Virus record (IMG/VR): IMGVR_UViG_3300021957_005216
Location: 1 to 21,283 of that record
Source: a virus
DNA: 21,283 nt
Strand: one strand, 5' to 3'
Shown piece after piece: positions 4,808 through 17,475 of this stretch. Each line of letters begins with the position of its first letter. Within the stretch, counting starts at the first letter, position 1. Below the pieces are notes generated by a model, which had not been told where the DNA came from, searched no databases, and saw nothing but the letters and a program-made list of their open reading frames with translations. The translations under genes were made by a program, and so were the position numbers.

Positions 4808-6022
4808 ATGTTGATAGAAGATGTCCTAACAGAGTTTAAGAGGACACACCTTGAACACATCGAGGACATCGTGATCACTGACGGCTACGAGGGTGGCAAG
4901 GCTGTTGTGGAATACTTTAGGGGACTTTTACTAACTCTGAAAGGCACCAGCTCAGAAGCAATGAGTGTGTCTGTGAAGTGGGACGGTGCGCCTGCCGTGG
5001 TTTGTGGTATCAATCCAGACAATGGCAAGTTCTTCGTAGGAACAAAGTCCGTGTTCGCAAAAGCCGCCAAGATAAATTACACAAAGAAAGATGTAGCAAA
5101 CAATCACGGAACAGATGAACTAGGACAGAAGTTATTGAAGTGCCTGGTACATCTAAAGAAACTGAATATACAAGGCGTAGTGCAAGGTGATCTATTGTAT
5201 ATAGATGACGACATCACACGTAAGAATATAGATGGTAAGCCTCATTTAACATTTACACCAAACACAATCACATATGCTGTGCCAGAAGGTGGAGACCTAG
5301 GTAAACAGATAGATAGAGCGAAGGTAGGTATTATATTCCACACAACATACAACGGCGAGACACTTGCAGACATGTCAGCATCTGGGGGAGCAGACGTAAG
5401 TGCATTCACTAGAAACAATGACGTGTTCTTTGACAACGCAACATACAAGGACGTGTCAGGCAGTGCCAAGTTCACAGATGATGAAACCAAACAGTTCTAC
5501 AACGGAATAGAGAAGTTGGAAACACTGTTAAATGGTGTTCCACAGAATCTATCAAGTGTGTTGGGACAGAACCAAGACTTCATCCCCATGTTTCAGATGT
5601 ACATAAACGCAATGGTCAAACAAGGACAGTTGCCCAGCAACGTCAACCAGTTCTTACTGGGGTTCAAGAAGTTCTACGCAGAAAGAATGCAACAGCAGAT
5701 GTCGGGATTGAAGGCGCAGAAGGCCTTGCAGTTGAGACAGGACAAGATGAAGCAGATGCCTGTATTCCTTAACAGAGCCAAAAAGCCGTTACAGGCAATG
5801 CTGACTTTCTATAAAGCAGTGCAGACCATGAAAGGCTTTGTGTTAAAGAAAATGAACCAAGCACAGGCAATAGGATCATTCCAACAGACAGACGGCGGAC
5901 TTGAGGTGACAGAACCAGAAGGATTCGTAGCAGTTGATAGATCAGGCAATGCCGTTAAGTTGGTCGATAGGTTAGGATTCTCAAGAAGAAATCTTTCAAT
6001 CGTCAACAAGTTTAAGAAGTAA
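4808..6022 (+). CDS. DNA/RNA ligase-like nucleotidyltransferase superfamily protein
   Basis: The 404-residue protein carries K57-W-D-G60, the K-x-D-G nucleotidyl-attachment motif I of ATP-dependent DNA and RNA ligases and capping enzymes. A G-x-K-S stretch follows. Q-G-D-L-L-Y (126-131) resembles motif III, and a strand V-G-I-I-F-H (173-178) sits where motif IIIa would be expected. I cannot point to a convincing motif IV (E-G-x-V) or motif V (K-x-K), so catalysis is uncertain. The C-terminal half (about 225-404) is helical and lysine-rich, ending in a basic tail. Similar proteins in marine T4-like phages are, as I recall, described as unknown (DUF6267-type). AAGAGG seven bases before the ATG is a fair ribosome site. 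Its 3' end overlaps the minus-strand glycosyltransferase-like gene by 27 bases. Confidence 0.65.
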   Translation: MLIEDVLTEFKRTHLEHIEDIVITDGYEGGKAVVEYFRGLLLTLKGTSSEAMSVSVKWDGAPAVVCGINPDNGKFFVGTKSVFAKAAKINYTKKDVANNHGTDELGQKLLKCLVHLKKLNIQGVVQGDLLYIDDDITRKNIDGKPHLTFTPNTITYAVPEGGDLGKQIDRAKVGIIFHTTYNGETLADMSASGGADVSAFTRNNDVFFDNATYKDVSGSAKFTDDETKQFYNGIEKLETLLNGVPQNLSSVLGQNQDFIPMFQMYINAMVKQGQLPSNVNQFLLGFKKFYAERMQQQMSGLKAQKALQLRQDKMKQMPVFLNRAKKPLQAMLTFYKAVQTMKGFVLKKMNQAQAIGSFQQTDGGLEVTEPEGFVAVDRSGNAVKLVDRLGFSRRNLSIVNKFKK

Positions 6023-7000
6023 TTTCAGATATTGATTCACATGACTCTTCAAAAGAGTCTCATCGAAGAAGGTTTTGTAGTTGTGCTCACGTATGGTGTG
6101 AGTCATTTCGTACATTTTTGTATGATTACTGCCTTTTAAAGATCTACACAAATCAACGATACATTTGGTACGCGAGCTCAAATCTTGCACATCATCATAG
6201 GTTTCATCTATGTGTTCTCCGTATGTCATAAAACCAAGTGCCCGCAACGTTTTAAGATAGTCTGCCTTGGCGTGTACTATGAAGGGTTGTTTGGCCACTA
6301 TCGACTTCCATAACTTCTCTGTCATGAAGAGCTCGTCAGCCGAAGTCTCCGGTACGATGTTCCAAGCAGAATGATTGTAAGGTTTTTCATATAGGTCTCT
6401 GTCAGCACCATACCTTGGGTAATTATTTCGATACTTAGGCAGTTCAAACTCCGGATCGAGTAAAATGTCCTTATCATGGTAACTGAAAAGACTGTTGGAA
6501 AGCAGGCCCTCTTTAGACAGAGAATCAAATAGAAGATCTCTGTGCGGTCTTTGTGCCTTGTTGAGAAACAGAAAGTCAAATGCCTTGTGGTTGTGATAAA
6601 AATCAAATTGCATATTCTTATACCTTTGTTGCATGATGAACCAGAAGTAAGCCGTGCCGCCATGCCATACATCAAAGTCATATTCTTTTAAAATTTTTGG
6701 ATACTCTGTGGACATTATCTGCTTTTTAGATTCCCAGAAATTACAAAGCACAATTCTGATATCTTTTTTTACCAAAGTGTCCACCTTATGCATAAGATCA
6801 TCTTTGAATTCATCAGAAACAACCATACAACCTGTGCTGATTAAAGCAAAGACTTTATCATATTTCGAGTGATCGTTCAACACATGGTTGTAATATATGG
6901 TTTCGAATTCTATGTCATGATCTGAAAACCGTAGAAAGTTCTCAACTGATACAACATCAGTGGAGGTTGTAAGGTTTGTGTACACTAAGATCCGGCCCAT
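5996..7000 (-). CDS. GT10/fucosyltransferase-like glycosyltransferase (minus strand)
   Basis: The 334-residue protein has a C-terminal block very like the donor-binding region of GT10 fucosyltransferases: N-I-V-P-E-T with E218, then F-M-T-E-K-L-W-K (225-232), P-F-I-V, L-G-F-M-T-Y (255-260) and D-E-T-Y-D-D (265-270). The usual fucosyltransferase block is E-[NT]-S followed by T-E-K-L-W and P-V-V. The N-terminal half looks like the acceptor-side Rossmann domain of a GT-B enzyme. It probably transfers a sugar from a nucleotide donor; the donor and acceptor are unknown. The divergent neighbour at 7018 shows the same block. The ATG lies 11 bases downstream of an ATTAAATA box on its own strand. Its end overlaps the ligase-like gene by 27 bases. 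Confidence 0.65.
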   Translation of the reverse strand: MGRILVYTNLTTSTDVVSVENFLRFSDHDIEFETIYYNHVLNDHSKYDKVFALISTGCMVVSDEFKDDLMHKVDTLVKKDIRIVLCNFWESKKQIMSTEYPKILKEYDFDVWHGGTAYFWFIMQQRYKNMQFDFYHNHKAFDFLFLNKAQRPHRDLLFDSLSKEGLLSNSLFSYHDKDILLDPEFELPKYRNNYPRYGADRDLYEKPYNHSAWNIVPETSADELFMTEKLWKSIVAKQPFIVHAKADYLKTLRALGFMTYGEHIDETYDDVQDLSSRTKCIVDLCRSLKGSNHTKMYEMTHTIREHNYKTFFDETLLKSHVNQYLKLLLKLVDD

Positions 7001-7005: not shown

Positions 7006-7011
7006 TGTGTG

Positions 7012-7019
7012 TATTTAAT
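7012..7019 (-). promoter_or_regulatory. T4-like late promoter box (minus strand)
   Basis: ATTAAATA on the minus strand overlaps the start codon of the plus-strand gene at 7018. It would start transcription near 7006, six bases before the minus-strand ATG at 7000. The two opposing boxes are only six bases apart. Confidence 0.5.
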
Positions 7020-8127
7020 GATTATCGATTCCACATATTTTTCTTCATACCTAGAGGCCTCGAAGTTGACCATCAGCAGGCTTGACGACCCTTTGGGAGA
7101 CTTCTGGTTGAAGGACTGGTTCTCTGACTTCCAAGGCAGGGATAGTATATTCGTACATTCTTTCCCACAGCACGAGGAAGACGTCAAAGAGATTATAAAA
7201 TTTTGTTCGCAACATCTCGATTACACTCATATCATTATCCTAAGTGGACAGGTAGTGCCTATCGAACCAGTACAGGAATTAGTATCAACACAGGAAAAAG
7301 TATATGTGTTGAACGATTATGGTTTCACCAGTGACAAGTTCTTACCTATAACCAGTGCCCACAGAACCTTTGGCAAGGGATACATCAATAAGGTGCCATT
7401 CGTTCCATGGTCAAAGAGGAAATACGTTCTGAGTTCATTGTCGAGCAGATATGAACCACACCGTTGGATAATAACAAGTTACCTACACAGTCTTAAAAGG
7501 AATGATTTCACCTACAGTTTTCATAACGCATATCCAATGACACATGATGTAGACCACTTTATCACAACCGCAAAATCTGTGTGCAACTACGAGGTCGATC
7601 CGTTGATGGTATCCTCAGCACAGGATTTGATAGACAACGCACCTATAGTGCCTGCTGGTATGCACAATCCAAGGCCAGAAGGAAAGCAAAATGAAAACAC
7701 GTTGATTTATGACCAATGTGAAATTGGTGTATATCTTGATAGCAAAGTCCATCTCACCATGGAAGGACAATTCGTTGACACCGGGTATGGTTGCAACATC
7801 ACAGAGAAGACCATCAAGTGTTTGGCCTCCGGGTGCTTTCCATTACACGTTGGCCAGAGCGGCTTCTACAAGTTTCTATCCAGTATGGGTTTCAATTTCA
7901 ACACAGAATTAGATCTCGGCTACGATGAAACACCTCATGACAACAGGAAGGCCAAACTAGATGGTGTCATATCGAACATAAACAATTTGCATCCAACACC
8001 ACACCTTGAAAGCATCTGTAAGCAGAACTATGAATGGTTCCATAATGGTTGGTATGAAAGTTGTGAAAGACAAAACAAGTCATTACTAGATACACTAAAG
8101 CGGAGAATCCATGAGCAAAGCAAATAG
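7018..8127 (+). CDS. GT10/fucosyltransferase-like glycosyltransferase (plus strand)
   Basis: The 369-residue protein shows the same C-terminal block as its divergent neighbour: an H-L-T-M-E-G strand with E249, N-I-T-E-K-T-I-K (260-267), a cysteine-rich turn C-L-A-S-G-C-F-P-L-H-V, S-M-G-F-N-F, and Y-D-E (302-304) followed by a basic helix. It is therefore probably a paralogous glycosyltransferase acting on a different acceptor. I chose the ATG at 7018 because the GTG at 7009 lies before the predicted transcription start of the CATAAATA box at 6998-7005. Its 3' end overlaps the SGNH-like gene by 17 bases, so the pair is likely cotranscribed. Confidence 0.6.
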   Translation: MIIDSTYFSSYLEASKLTISRLDDPLGDFWLKDWFSDFQGRDSIFVHSFPQHEEDVKEIIKFCSQHLDYTHIIILSGQVVPIEPVQELVSTQEKVYVLNDYGFTSDKFLPITSAHRTFGKGYINKVPFVPWSKRKYVLSSLSSRYEPHRWIITSYLHSLKRNDFTYSFHNAYPMTHDVDHFITTAKSVCNYEVDPLMVSSAQDLIDNAPIVPAGMHNPRPEGKQNENTLIYDQCEIGVYLDSKVHLTMEGQFVDTGYGCNITEKTIKCLASGCFPLHVGQSGFYKFLSSMGFNFNTELDLGYDETPHDNRKAKLDGVISNINNLHPTPHLESICKQNYEWFHNGWYESCERQNKSLLDTLKRRIHEQSK

Positions 8128-8818
8128 GATAGGACTTTTTGGCTGTAGCAATCTCTACGGGTACCATCATGCATTTGCGGATGCAGTGTTGGGTGCAAAC
8201 AAGTTGGAAAAATTGAATGCCTACCTCGATGAACATGTCTACAATACTAAAAATATCACAGATCAGGTCACACACAATGGCACAACAATCAGTAACCATT
8301 CCTTTCCAGGGTGCGGTAACACCTACATCAACGAGATGTTGAAACAAAAATTAGACGATATGGATTATGTGTTCGTGCAATTCACAGGACTTACTAGAAT
8401 AGATGTACCTGGTTACGTTGAAGGATTTCCATTTCAGCATAACGGATGGGTGTTCTCTGGTGGGCAAAACGGGTACTGGAAACAACATGACACCACAGTG
8501 TCTATGTTTACCGATCACTACAGTAGGTCCACAGAAGATACAGTGCAAGATAATCTCGCAGTAATTAAACAAACTGTGGACATGTTGGAGCAAAGTAATA
8601 AACCATACAACTGGTGTTTCTATTACGATCTTGCCAAAACAAACAAAGAAGACCACGAACCTTTAGTATTAGATACAAACAATAAGTTTATAGATAGTGA
8701 TCCGCACACGCACTGTTTTACAATGGGCAAAGGAGCAGACGATGGCGTTCACTTCATGTACGACGGCTATAGGGACTGGCTGTGCAAGATCAAACATCAA
8801 CTCAACCTGCCTCGATAA
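8111..8818 (+). CDS. SGNH/GDSL hydrolase-like protein (plus strand)
   Basis: In this 235-residue protein the four blocks of SGNH hydrolases can be placed. Block I is G-C-S-N with S13 as nucleophile, block II is P-G-C-G-N (66-70), a third block is F-V-Q-F-T-G-L-T-R (88-96), and the C-terminal D-x-x-H is D211-G-V-H214. Enzymes of this fold remove acetyl or other acyl groups from glycans or lipids, which fits the neighbouring glycosyltransferase-like gene. Block III lacks a clean asparagine, so activity is not certain. The start overlaps the end of the previous gene by 17 bases. The stop codon TAA lies inside the GATAAATA late-type box of the next gene. Confidence 0.6.
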   Translation: MSKANRIGLFGCSNLYGYHHAFADAVLGANKLEKLNAYLDEHVYNTKNITDQVTHNGTTISNHSFPGCGNTYINEMLKQKLDDMDYVFVQFTGLTRIDVPGYVEGFPFQHNGWVFSGGQNGYWKQHDTTVSMFTDHYSRSTEDTVQDNLAVIKQTVDMLEQSNKPYNWCFYYDLAKTNKEDHEPLVLDTNNKFIDSDPHTHCFTMGKGADDGVHFMYDGYRDWLCKIKHQLNLPR

Positions 8819-8821
8819 ATA
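8814..8821 (+). promoter_or_regulatory. T4-like late promoter box GATAAATA, leaderless geometry
   Basis: GATAAATA contains the TAA stop of the SGNH-like gene and ends exactly five bases before the ATG at 8827, which predicts a leaderless transcript. Confidence 0.7.
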
Positions 8822-8826
8822 TCAAT

Positions 8827-9387
8827 ATGCTTACTCCATTTTTAAAGTATGTAGCCGAGGGCAAGGTCATTAGACGTCACGGTGACTTACAGAGATTCTC
8901 GTTTCCAGAAGTCACAGAACGGATTTATCTAAGTTTCCTAGCATTGGCCTTGATGAGTCAGAACAAGGATACTCGGTCTTTCACTAAATCATACGCAGAC
9001 CAAACAATGGCAAAGGGCACGTTTGACCAAGTTAGGATGATCAACAATGATCTTTCTAACATGTTGGCCATAGTGTCAGGTGATCCTGAGATTACCAAGA
9101 AACTAAAGAACAAAGACGAAGCACAAGCCATGAGGCAGAGACAACCTGTGCCTGTAATGGCATTGAGAAGATACCTCAGGACGTGGGAAGATCATTTTAA
9201 GAATCTTACCCATCTAGAGAGATCTCTTAACATAACCGATGCCAACCTAAAGAACATCAGGCGAGCAGTGGCCAACTACACAAAGTTGAATTCCAAAATG
9301 AAGATGCAGACCCTACACAGACTTCAACAGCAATTACAATCTAAACTGCCCAATACAGACATACTAAAAAAATTCAAGGAACTATGA
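8827..9387 (+). CDS. Conserved hypothetical phage protein, helical and basic
   Basis: The 186-residue protein is rich in lysine, arginine and leucine, predicted helical throughout, and has no cysteine or membrane segment. I do not recognise a domain; a virion or assembly role is possible from the promoter type but is a guess. The ATG at 8827 is chosen over the in-frame ATG at 8782, because 8782 lies inside the previous gene and upstream of the GATAAATA box that sits five bases before 8827. Its stop overlaps the start of the next small gene as ATGA, implying translational coupling. Confidence 0.75.
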   Translation: MLTPFLKYVAEGKVIRRHGDLQRFSFPEVTERIYLSFLALALMSQNKDTRSFTKSYADQTMAKGTFDQVRMINNDLSNMLAIVSGDPEITKKLKNKDEAQAMRQRQPVPVMALRRYLRTWEDHFKNLTHLERSLNITDANLKNIRRAVANYTKLNSKMKMQTLHRLQQQLQSKLPNTDILKKFKEL

Positions 9388-9497
9388 TGATGATCAAATA
9401 TATTTGTGAGAAGTGTGAGTGCGAACAGCATTGTGGGAGATCATGTAGCGAGTGCCTAGACTGTCCTGACTGTGCATGTAAAGAATGTGAAAAATAA
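9384..9497 (+). CDS. 37-residue cysteine-rich microprotein
   Basis: A short open frame starts with three ATG codons in a row and encodes 37 residues, ten of them cysteine (positions 8, 11, 13, 17, 21, 24, 27, 30, 32, 35) with one histidine (16). The C-x-x-C and C-x-C spacings recur and acidic residues fill the gaps, as in small zinc-binding or metallothionein-like peptides. It fits exactly between two genes: its first ATG overlaps the upstream stop (ATGA) and its TAA overlaps the downstream ATG (TAATG). That fit and the cysteine density argue for a real gene. No homologue is known to me. Metal binding, redox or an adaptor role are all possible. Confidence 0.7.
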   Translation: MMMIKYICEKCECEQHCGRSCSECLDCPDCACKECEK

Positions 9498-10108
9498 TGT
9501 ACCCGACAGGCAGAGACTTCTGGGTAGCATACAAAGGTTCGCATACTAAACCAACTTTCATGAAGGACGAAGGAGACGGACAAGGTCCTCTCAGACAAAT
9601 AGCATACCGTTACGTCCAAGACTGGAGAGTCTGCGTTGATGCAGGAGCCAACGTTGGCATGTGGACAAGAAATTTGATGCAGGACTTTGATACCGTACAC
9701 TGTTTCGAGCCTAATCCTGTTTTCATAGAGTGTTGGAATAAGAACATACCCGCTGATCAAAATGCAGTCTTGCATGAAGTAGGCCTAGGTGAGAAAAATT
9801 CTAGTGCCTCATTTGATTCACCATTGGACCAGAAATTACAGAGGTCACCGGGTAGTATAAAAATTAAAACCCTAGACAGTTATGAATTAACCAACGTAGA
9901 CTTTATAAAGATAGATGTTGATGGCTATGAAGATCTACTATTACAAGGTGCTAAAGAAACAATAGCAAACAATTCACCGGTCATAAACATTGAAATGAAA
10001 CAGACAAAAAGACCAGACGTTGTTAAAGTTTCAAGAAAAATACTCCATGATCTAGGATATAATATGAGAATTCGCACTAGAAGTGACGAAGTCTGGGCAA
10101 AATCGTAA
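9497..10108 (+). CDS. FkbM-family SAM-dependent methyltransferase
   Basis: The 203-residue protein shows the FkbM pattern: motif I C-V-D-A-G-A-N-V-G (46-54), strand-2 end F-E-P-N-P (70-74), and the family-specific F-I-K-I-D-V-D-G-Y-E (136-145) followed by I-N-I-E-M (163-167). FkbM enzymes methylate hydroxyl groups on sugars and natural products, which fits the glycan-related genes upstream. The ATG is formed by the stop codon of the microprotein gene (TAATG), so translation is probably coupled. It is the last gene before the strong leader of the next unit and has no terminator that I can see. Confidence 0.85.
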   Translation: MYPTGRDFWVAYKGSHTKPTFMKDEGDGQGPLRQIAYRYVQDWRVCVDAGANVGMWTRNLMQDFDTVHCFEPNPVFIECWNKNIPADQNAVLHEVGLGEKNSSASFDSPLDQKLQRSPGSIKIKTLDSYELTNVDFIKIDVDGYEDLLLQGAKETIANNSPVINIEMKQTKRPDVVKVSRKILHDLGYNMRIRTRSDEVWAKS

Positions 10109-14457: not shown

Positions 14458-15162
14458 ATGAAAATACCAAAGGATGTCCTTGATGAAAAGGGAATAACCT
14501 ATATCCAAAAATATCCTTACGACGAGTTATCGAGAGTAACAAAAAATCACAAACGGCATTATGAAACACCAGATGGCAGACAGGTGCCCAGCGTGACCAC
14601 AGTGCTGAGTGCCACAAAGGACATGACACATCTACACGCTTGGCGAAAGAGAATAGGTGTGGAGAAGGCACAACAGATAACAACAGAGAGTGCAAACATA
14701 GGAACGGTCATGCACCGTAGCCTTGAAAAGCATGTGAAGGGCGAGGACAGGACTCCGGGTTCCAATCTAATTCAGCAGAAGGCACACAAGATGGCCAACG
14801 TTATCATAGACAACGGACTAAACAATGTCAGCGAGGTGTGGGGGTCAGAGGTTTCACTGTATTATCCGGAACTGTACGCCGGAACCACCGACCTAGTAGG
14901 TGTGTATAAAGATGCTCCTGCAATAATGGACTTCAAACAGGCACGTAGACTCAAGAAGAAAGAGTGGGTAGAAGATTATTTCCTACAACTGGTGGCTTAC
15001 TCCGAAGCACACAACAAGATGTATGACACGCAGATAAAGACCGGTCGTATATTCATATGCACCCAGAACAACGAATATCAAACATTTGACATAGAAAACT
15101 ACGATCACTGGGTTGGGCAGTGGTATGCTAAACTAGAAGAGTATTATAAAAAAATTCTATAG
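14458..15162 (+). CDS. PD-(D/E)XK nuclease, RecB/MGME1-type exonuclease
   Basis: The 234-residue protein has the ordered motifs of RecB-type PD-(D/E)XK nucleases: G82-x-x-x-H86 (I-G-T-V-M-H), E131, the metal-binding D145 (T-T-D-L-V-G), D158-x-K160 (I-M-D-F-K-Q) and Q177-x-x-x-Y181 (Q-L-V-A-Y). This set, including the H and Q-x-x-x-Y motifs, is typical of single-strand-processing exonucleases such as mitochondrial MGME1 and phage exonucleases. It probably acts in host DNA breakdown, recombination or repair. Unlike its late-type neighbours it has a sigma70-like promoter, suggesting early or middle expression. Its stop overlaps the stop of the minus-strand SGNH-like gene by six bases (CTATAG). 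Confidence 0.85.
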   Translation: MKIPKDVLDEKGITYIQKYPYDELSRVTKNHKRHYETPDGRQVPSVTTVLSATKDMTHLHAWRKRIGVEKAQQITTESANIGTVMHRSLEKHVKGEDRTPGSNLIQQKAHKMANVIIDNGLNNVSEVWGSEVSLYYPELYAGTTDLVGVYKDAPAIMDFKQARRLKKKEWVEDYFLQLVAYSEAHNKMYDTQIKTGRIFICTQNNEYQTFDIENYDHWVGQWYAKLEEYYKKIL

Positions 15163-15846
15163 ATATTTCTTAACAAGATTTGCCCAATGATTACTACCTT
15201 CTATACCAGGGTGTCCATCCTTCTCCTTAGGGAAATCTTTAGTGTGTATTTTTAATGAGTACCAAAAATCTTCTATCCAAATATCTTTGTCTAATTTTTC
15301 GATTAATTTCTTTAATTTGTTTTTATTGAAGGCTACACCCATTCGTGTCATGTCTTCCGTTTCTATTGACATGAATGCATCTTTTGAATAATTTTCTAAA
15401 GACTTGTCATCAATGTCTGGCAAGAATGCGTTGAAGTACCATAATTTTATTCTTTTCTGCTTACAATAATCTTGTAGATGTAACATGTAATGCAAAGTTC
15501 TTTCTAGACTAGTATAACTGTTATGACAGTTCTTGTAATAAAATTCTGAGTAGTTGCTGTAATCTCCACCTAGGTTTTCATCAAATGTGTGTATTGGTGT
15601 GACAATTATTCTACTGCCATTAGTATTAGGCAACATGAATCTGTCTACATTGGTCCACCCTATAATCAAAGAATCAACTGTGTGATTATTAAGGTGTTCG
15701 ATTGTCGTGTAAAAGATACGTTCATTAGATCCGCCGCCGTGTGCAAGATTAGTGCTTATGCCACATTTAGTAGTCCATCTATCTTGTGGTTGTAGATATG
15801 CTTCTTGTACGTAAGAGCATCCGTTTGCTACTATCATATTTGACAT
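15157..15846 (-). CDS. SGNH/GDSL hydrolase-like protein (minus strand)
   Basis: The 229-residue protein shows SGNH blocks: N-G-C-S with S11, A-H-G-G-G-S-N (35-41), I-G-W-T-N (62-66) and a C-terminal D210-G-H212 followed by W-A. G39, N41 and N66 match the glycine and asparagine positions of the oxyanion hole, so the layout is more complete than in the gene at 8111. It is a likely esterase or acyl-hydrolase on glycans. It sits directly before the beta-helix tail fibre gene on the opposite strand, as part of a divergent promoter pair. Its ATG lies six bases after a GTTAAATA box, so its mRNA would be almost leaderless. Confidence 0.7.
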   Translation of the reverse strand: MSNMIVANGCSYVQEAYLQPQDRWTTKCGISTNLAHGGGSNERIFYTTIEHLNNHTVDSLIIGWTNVDRFMLPNTNGSRIIVTPIHTFDENLGGDYSNYSEFYYKNCHNSYTSLERTLHYMLHLQDYCKQKRIKLWYFNAFLPDIDDKSLENYSKDAFMSIETEDMTRMGVAFNKNKLKKLIEKLDKDIWIEDFWYSLKIHTKDFPKEKDGHPGIEGSNHWANLVKKYL

Positions 15847-15891: not shown

Positions 15892-17475
15892 ATGCCAATA
15901 GTTCAAATTTCAAGAATACAGCACAGACGTGGAAAACGTACGGATCTACCGCAATTGGCCGCGGGAGAACTGGGTTGGGTAATAGACGAACAACGATTGT
16001 TCATTGGAAACGGAACAGTGTCGGATGGTGCACCAGCAGTGGGCAACACGGAAATAGTCACATCAGGCAGTTCAGCATTCACGACAGCACTTAATCACAC
16101 ATATCAGGGTTACCTGGGAAACAGCACACCTGTTACCTTATCACAGGCAAGAACTTTACAAAAGAGACTAGATGATTACGTGTCAGTCAAAGACTTTGGT
16201 GCCACAGGTGATGACAGCACAGCAGACGTTACTGCAATACAAAATGCTATCGATGAACTTTACATAGACACAGATAAAACAGACACAAGATCAAGGAGGG
16301 TGCTTTTCTTCCCGGCAGGCACTTACAGAATCAATGCCGCACTTAAGATACCACCATACGCACACTTGGTTGGAGAAGGCCCAGACAAAACTATTATAAG
16401 GAATTCAGGCAATAATGCCGTTATGGTAACACAGGACAACGCAGGCAATGTAGGTCTTAATATAACTGCCCAGGTCAACCAAATACAAATTTCAAACATG
16501 ACAATCAGGAACACAGTCGCTTATGGCGGTGTGTCTTTAGACAGTGCCAAGGAAGTTTACTTCAACAACTGTAAATTCCTAGGATCCTATGCAACGACGT
16601 CCCCGGCGGATGCATCAACATCTAAAGGTGTTACAGTGACTTCTACCACTGCTCTGCCGTGTGAAAAAATATATTTCAATCAATGCCAGTTCACTAAATT
16701 TGCAAGATTAGTTGACATGAGTTTTGATGCAACAAATGTTAGATTTAATGATTGTGATTTCAACACTGCCTATTACGGAGCATTGATAGGAGACGAGTGG
16801 GACAGTTCTACAACCAATGGTATGACCGTTGGACCAAGAGACATACAATTCATAGGGAACAGTTGGAGCACCATCAGTCAACAAGCAATATACGTCAAGG
16901 CACAACAGACAGTTGAGGCACCATCAAGGAACATAATCTCAAGTGGAAATTGGTACGCAAAAGATGTAGCCAACAACTTTGAAGGTGTTGGATCGATCAG
17001 AGAAGTACCAGTACTTCGTTATGACCAAGATGAGTGTAGTTCTATAATGGACTTCTTTGAAAGAACTGATCTAAGAAGATCGGACGGTAGTTCAGAATTG
17101 AATGCCGCACCGGAATTACAAGGTATTGGCGTACAGACCAAAGCGATCAAATCACAGACTCTAGCAAACAACACATCGGCGGCCACCACATTCAATGAAT
17201 ACCCGGCACTAGCAGGTAAAGGATTGAAAGTTGTTTACAAAATTGTTAGGGGTACACTTGACAGGACAGGTGAAATGGTAGTGAGTGCTTCTACCAACGG
17301 TGTGAGTTTCGATGACACCTACACAGAAAGTGGAACTGACGTTGGGGTGGACCTGACAGCAGTACTTGACAACAAAGATTCCACAGCAGGATCGGAAACA
17401 GTTGCGTTGAAATTTACAACTACCAATACAGGTACGGCGGCAACTATAGATTACCAAACAACAATCTTAGCATAA
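15892..17475 (+). CDS. Tail fibre/tailspike with pectate-lyase-like beta-helix
   Basis: The 527-residue protein has three parts. Residues 6-50 (R-I-Q-H-R-R-G then A-A-G-E-L-G-W-V-I-D and L-F-I-G-N-G) match the short N-terminal repeat found in many phage tail-fibre and Mtd-like proteins. Residues about 97-400 are a right-handed beta-helix of the pectate-lyase-3 type, opening with S-V-K-D-F-G-A-T-G-D-D-S-T and continuing with F-F-P-A-G-T-Y-R-I and L-V-G-E-G. Residues about 410-527 are a beta-rich C-terminal domain, probably for trimer formation or binding. It likely sits at the baseplate or tail tip and binds or cuts surface polysaccharide; catalytic residues cannot be assigned by eye. The frame is uninterrupted and the start lies seven bases after a late-type box. 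Confidence 0.85.
   Translation: MPIVQISRIQHRRGKRTDLPQLAAGELGWVIDEQRLFIGNGTVSDGAPAVGNTEIVTSGSSAFTTALNHTYQGYLGNSTPVTLSQARTLQKRLDDYVSVKDFGATGDDSTADVTAIQNAIDELYIDTDKTDTRSRRVLFFPAGTYRINAALKIPPYAHLVGEGPDKTIIRNSGNNAVMVTQDNAGNVGLNITAQVNQIQISNMTIRNTVAYGGVSLDSAKEVYFNNCKFLGSYATTSPADASTSKGVTVTSTTALPCEKIYFNQCQFTKFARLVDMSFDATNVRFNDCDFNTAYYGALIGDEWDSSTTNGMTVGPRDIQFIGNSWSTISQQAIYVKAQQTVEAPSRNIISSGNWYAKDVANNFEGVGSIREVPVLRYDQDECSSIMDFFERTDLRRSDGSSELNAAPELQGIGVQTKAIKSQTLANNTSAATTFNEYPALAGKGLKVVYKIVRGTLDRTGEMVVSASTNGVSFDDTYTESGTDVGVDLTAVLDNKDSTAGSETVALKFTTTNTGTAATIDYQTTILA

Follow-up and report, generated by a model that had tools for sequence, protein, structure and literature searches.

A conserved Cys10His miniprotein of marine T4-like phages that probably works like a metallothionein

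Introduction

The described systems closest to the phage miniprotein considered here are the bacterial metallothioneins, represented by SmtA/BmtA and the Pseudomonas PflQ2 metallothionein, the metallothioneins of vertebrates, and the CCHC zinc knuckle. Histidine is common in the bacterial proteins (PMC10612145), and the stoichiometry given for the vertebrate alpha domain is Zn4Cys11 (PMC10243857). In the open-access literature we found no relevant paper on phage or viral metallothioneins; papers outside it could exist. Phage genes of fewer than 50 residues can escape PHROGs and Pfam.

One such gene lies in the window, by which we mean the whole 21,283-nucleotide stretch of viral DNA analyzed here, which is also the full extent of its virus record. 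It encodes ten cysteines and one histidine within 28 residues, and an earlier note on the same DNA had proposed that its product might be a metallothionein-like or zinc-cluster peptide. We consider it somewhat better than an even chance that the product is a metallothionein-like miniprotein, stand-alone and cytosolic, with which marine T4-like (Kyanoviridae-related) phages buffer metal; metal binding is a prediction of this reading.

The gene and its phage

The features on which the argument draws are as follows.

5996-7000, minus strand: cargo-like gene, glycosyltransferase-like by eye, no library match
7009-8127, plus strand: cargo-like gene, likewise glycosyltransferase-like by eye, no library match
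8111-8818, plus strand: cargo-like gene
8782..9387, plus strand: upstream gene U, 201 amino acids, no assigned function (open reading frame; homologue comparison)
9376..9380, plus strand: Shine-Dalgarno-like AAGGA within the final codons of the upstream gene (...FKEL, stop), read from the sequence
9384..9497, plus strand: ten-cysteine miniprotein gene, type A (translation of the open reading frame, family conservation, dN/dS)
9405..9488, plus strand: Cys10His core, C-x2-C-x-C-x2-H-C-x3-C-x2-C-x2-C-x2-C-x-C-x2-C (pattern scans)
9497..10108, plus strand: FkbM-type methyltransferase, next downstream (PF05050, E 9.6e-11; phrog_8156, E 3.2e-28)
15157-15846, minus strand: cargo-like gene, matching DUF6071

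Judged by its gene content, the window covers part of the genome of a marine T4-like phage close to Kyanoviridae. Pelagibacter phage HTVC008M (41.6%), Methylophilales phage Melnitz-3, and cyanomyophages carry the nearest relatives of the gene at 4808-6022 (DUF6267, phrog_455). Genes for a class Ia ribonucleotide reductase and for an exonuclease are also present, as is a tail-spike-like gene. This last gene (15892-17475, plus strand) combines an Mtd N-terminal domain with a pectate-lyase-like beta helix, and a class I glutamine amidotransferase-like gene (PF07722/PF00117) occupies 919-1503 on the minus strand. Rfam has no match in the window.

Translated from the first ATG, 9384-9497 reads MMMIKYICEKCECEQHCGRSCSECLDCPDCACKECEK and then stops. 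Its cysteines, at residues 8, 11, 13, 17, 21, 24, 27, 30, 32, and 35, make up more than one quarter of the peptide, so that the 37-residue, ten-cysteine frame and the C-x-x-C and C-x-C spacings over 28 residues described earlier are both borne out. The earlier note had also described stop-start links to both neighbors. The downstream link is firm: the junction reads TAATG, the miniprotein stop TAA (9495-9497) overlapping the FkbM ATG at 9497. Upstream, where the stop TGA of gene U occupies 9385-9387, the ATGA overlap exists only if the first of three consecutive in-frame ATGs (9384, 9387, and 9390, giving 37, 36, and 35 amino acids) is used. The gap between the AAGGA and the start codon is 3 nt for the first ATG, 6 nt for the second, and 9 nt for the third, and close relatives mostly start MIKYIC or MMIKYIC. 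Because this spacing is better and the relatives begin M(M)IKYIC, the sequence makes 9387 or 9390 (36 or 35 amino acids) the more likely true start over 9384; with the later ATGs better placed, the upstream overlap is possible rather than certain.

The AAGGA context, ...TTCAAGGAACT..., also precedes many of the relatives' copies. TATAAATA is absent from the window, and we therefore regard it as likely that the miniprotein is translated there by coupling from gene U. Six copies of one subtype elsewhere (L098, L103, L117, L147, L323, and L344; L numbers denote relatives' loci or contigs) carry a T4-late-promoter-like (T/A)ATAAATA placed 13 nt upstream of the ATG; a late transcript started from it would be nearly leaderless. 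A 133-aa open frame runs antisense across the cysteine gene and the start of FkbM (9374-9775, minus strand) and shows no sign of being a gene.

Family membership and selection

Copies were gathered from FkbM-anchored relatives and from scans of viral contigs, for the bare cysteine spacing and then for the spacing with histidine. The resulting collection holds at least 156 copies (including some contigs fetched twice), at least 117 distinct proteins, and at least 100 distinct cores, all from viral contigs, and every distinct core collected shares the full spacing listed above. When the scan pattern did not require histidine, it was nevertheless present in every real member among the matches listed. 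When 43 diverse members are aligned, no column is invariant except those of the ten cysteines and the histidine. A local profile search added a few copies in which the loop that follows the His-Cys pair is longer by one residue (L384, L096, L085, and L147), and further copies whose spacing differs elsewhere.

Relatives fetched through the FkbM protein, and not through their cysteines, bear directly on whether the pattern holds in related phages, a check that the earlier note had proposed, with loss of the frame or of the cysteines in close relatives as the outcome that would tell against it. Every copy present in these relatives retains all ten cysteines and the histidine; no cysteine has been lost from a present copy. 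Some relatives lack the gene entirely, with no remnant left, and it is therefore accessory.

The selection is on the protein. TGT and TGC are mixed at every cysteine position, which indicates that conservation acts on the amino acids and not on the DNA. The search pattern leaves 17 codons free, none of them for its cysteines or histidine, and at these dN/dS is about 0.10 (pS 0.55, pN 0.09) in pairs at least 80% identical; the pairs were picked by similarity, so these values are approximate. On this sequence evidence the miniprotein is translated and under purifying selection. A chance open frame or an overlap artifact of the flanking genes might be suspected of so short a frame with no library match, but this explanation is refuted: conservation in relatives, with at least 100 distinct sequences in many contexts and under purifying selection, rules it out where zero chance matches are expected. 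Within the window the cysteine spacing is present a single time, and none of 100 dinucleotide shuffles contains it. The stretch 9384-9497 is a real gene.

Profile and genome searches

The Pfam, NCBIfam, and PHROGs profiles give no meaningful match for any of the 43 members. The metallothionein families of Pfam and NCBIfam, among them PF02069, the Pfam family of bacterial metallothioneins, match none of the 43, and none of the eight members searched even at E 10; a profile search of the PDB up to E 10 likewise returned no metallothionein among its matches. Two candidates were set aside. The C-terminal 40 positions of phrog_24592, a family with no assigned function, match L364 at E 0.0085; this is one of the 43 members, and the same profile also matches in unrelated control genomes, which marks it as probably a chance match among cysteine-rich sequences. 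A single PADLOC match (E 0.044) was dropped. The family is a real phage miniprotein family, unclassified in the libraries checked.

With tblastn, no member was found in phage isolates (INPHARED) or plasmids (PLSDB); in a local control, low-complexity masking shortens some queries, and unmasked queries recover members down to 35-40% identity. Profile searches of 16 isolate phage genomes, mostly Kyanoviridae (HTVC008M, Mosig, Melnitz, S-PM2, P-SSM2, and others), and of about 1,300 cellular genomes sampled from four groups with some overlap found no member, and the same profile recovers members in virus records. A scan of cellular genome contigs for the bare cysteine spacing gave, among the matches listed with 12 or fewer core cysteines, none with a stop-free frame. 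It is chiefly the profile searches of sampled genomes that speak for absence from cells; with the cellular side covered by this sample of about 1,300 genomes, the family is possibly restricted to viruses.

Variation of the locus and the FkbM neighbor

Two paralogous forms of the miniprotein occur upstream of FkbM: type A, which is window-like, and type B, which resembles KCHRCACDPHCDKxCKNCENCDTCDCxKCLQRFAVDG. The 22 closest loci, those whose FkbM is about 50% identical or more, include some with A alone, some with B alone, some with B+A, and some with neither form. Gene U, which has a distant homologue in Agrobacterium phage Atu_ph07, precedes 116 of the 156 copies among the matches listed.

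The adjoining FkbM methyltransferase named in the earlier note is confirmed by its Pfam match, and the association is frequent in relatives without being obligatory. Of the 156 copies among the matches listed, 97 are directly followed by an FkbM homologue, the two genes are coupled by TAATG in the window, and the cysteine domain is fused in frame to FkbM in L121 and L346. These facts would suit a dedicated partner or regulatory domain of FkbM, acting as a metal-dependent stabilizer or a substrate-holding subunit and encoded in a coupled gene pair. However, the two fusion contigs are 98.9% identical over 3.7 kb, with 10 differences in the 726-nt fusion frame, and represent one lineage. L017 offers a clean empty site, in which a gene U 79% identical to that of the window ends ...TTCAAGGAACTGTAATGG... 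and passes through the same TAATG straight into FkbM; in L016 gene U is followed by FkbM with no peptide between them, L018 has both genes and lacks the peptide, and L008 has FkbM without an adjoining U or peptide. Most FkbM genes retrieved by the FkbM protein search are without the peptide, and many copies of the peptide stand beside other genes, so that co-occurrence is not obligate. We know of no FkbM enzyme that needs metal, and on this account we rate a dedicated partnership as improbable.

No decayed copy of the miniprotein was seen at the relatives' loci. The gene appears in about a dozen contexts other than the window-type locus, beside a probably structural protein of 125 amino acids, an SNase-like nuclease, a very long virion-like protein, another SAM methyltransferase, a sulfotransferase, or a radical-SAM gene, names that come from reading the sequences and not from library matches. 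Clean presence or absence at one site, together with the dozen contexts, suits an autonomous cargo gene.

Details of individual loci may be recorded here. Compared with the window, the L121/L346 fusion has two extra bases (TA) after the former FkbM start codon, and the start is lost. In L165 and L375 the gene after the cysteine frame encodes a long, probable structural protein, which in L375 has repeated GVAEG motifs and in L165 a short cysteine-rich insert of its own, CPQCGSSKCSCPPGKCKCK.

Metal buffering or a zinc finger

From established metalloprotein chemistry, metal sites are the most likely role for ten cysteines and one histidine that lie within 28 residues of a cytosolic peptide. The 114 distinct stand-alone members (median 40.5 amino acids, 25% cysteine, 2.5% aromatic) have the broad-sense traits of metallothioneins, namely, small size, high cysteine content, CxC and CxxC motifs, and few aromatic residues; the cores are acidic, with a median net charge of -2. 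The abundance of cysteine and an expected cytosolic location, no signal peptide being apparent in the sequence, would also suit a thiol redox buffer or scavenger of reactive oxygen, in which the cysteines cycle between thiols and disulfides instead of binding metal. Strict spacing and an invariant histidine fit the needs of metal sites, whereas a redox sponge needs neither, and we regard this alternative as very unlikely.

The main rival is a multi-zinc finger, a rigid adaptor for a host or phage protein (e.g., RNA polymerase or a virion protein) or for nucleic acid. Core positions 1, 4, 9, and 14 form C-x2-C-x4-H-x4-C, the CCHC spacing, in all 100 distinct cores among the matches listed, and positions 17, 20, 25, and 28 form a CxxC-x4-CxxC site; yet two such mononuclear sites leave three invariant cysteines unexplained. 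The 10 PDB profile matches with E values up to 10 all belong to zinc knuckles (AIR2, HIV NCp7), with alignments that pair positions 1, 4, 9, and 14, but they are insignificant (E 0.17-2.5), and zf-CCHC in Pfam matches none of eight members even at E 10. The glycine that precedes histidine in knuckles is absent in 114 of 114 members, position 2 is aromatic in 10%, the acidic core is unlike that of nucleic-acid-binding knuckles, and the four loop variants have H-x5-C. Near-invariant spacing suits a zinc finger and, being stricter than a mere metal sponge requires, counts against the metallothionein-like reading; E, N, or D at core position 16 in 99 of the 100 distinct cores among the matches listed was also counted for the finger. 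AlphaFold models of types A and B, from which metals are absent, have almost no secondary structure (pLDDT 80, pTM about 0.5), and structure searches with them gave no significant match; for type B, MYND and ZZ zinc domains are among the top Foldseek matches, at E 1.5 at best and rmsd over 7. Being free of metal, the models do not help to choose between the readings. Overall, we consider a multi-zinc finger unlikely, at roughly one chance in four.

The metallothionein-like or zinc-cluster reading of the earlier note is thus the best available, and the family probably works like a metallothionein. It is favored because of the invariant Cys10His set, the 25-27% cysteine, the CxxC and CxC motifs, the scarcity of aromatic residues, and the phage context; no profile similarity to a known metallothionein family was found, and neither a metal-sensor site nor a gene for metal transport was recognized next to the miniprotein gene. 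L153, in which a B unit and an A unit share one open reading frame, resembles multi-domain metallothioneins.

In the reducing cytosol, the 11 ligands would wrap around several d10 metal ions and hold them in a single thiolate cluster. The closest precedent by ligand count would be a four-metal cluster, predicted because 11 ligands with 5 bridging cysteines saturate four tetrahedral zinc ions, the arrangement of the 11-cysteine alpha domain in vertebrate metallothionein. Made together with virion and surface-modification genes, the peptide may buffer or scavenge zinc (or Cu(I)/Cd) released or displaced as host proteins are dismantled, which would keep free metal tolerable and store zinc for phage metalloenzymes until lysis. 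More tentatively, and at a little short of even odds, we propose an unclassified, possibly virus-only metallothionein family whose members are cargo exchanged at one site (none, A, B, or B+A) and serve to control the infected cell's zinc or other soft metals. If metal is bound as predicted, phages would have a metallothionein-like protein of their own with which to handle metal ions directly, and viral infection would be linked to the marine cycling of zinc, copper, and cadmium. Tiny, easily synthesized, and sharply defined by Cys10His, the family poses a directly testable question.

Comparison with known systems

Like SmtA/BmtA and the Pseudomonas PflQ2 metallothionein, the phage peptide is small, cytosolic, and cysteine-rich, with CxC and CxxC motifs, histidine among the expected ligands, and a similar ligand number. 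It differs from them in the order and spacing of its cysteines, in its lack of profile similarity, in its shorter length (about 40 amino acids), in its occurrence here in phage contigs only, and in having no identified metal-sensor gene beside it. With the vertebrate alpha domain it shares 11 ligands in about 30 residues; the vertebrate ligands are 11 cysteines, whereas the phage peptide has ten cysteines and one histidine, no CC pairs, and an unrelated sequence. Core positions 1, 4, 9, and 14 have exactly the spacing of the CCHC zinc knuckle of retroviral nucleocapsid and AIR2, but the phage core is acidic, has no knuckle glycine, includes four loop-length variants, and carries seven further invariant cysteines.
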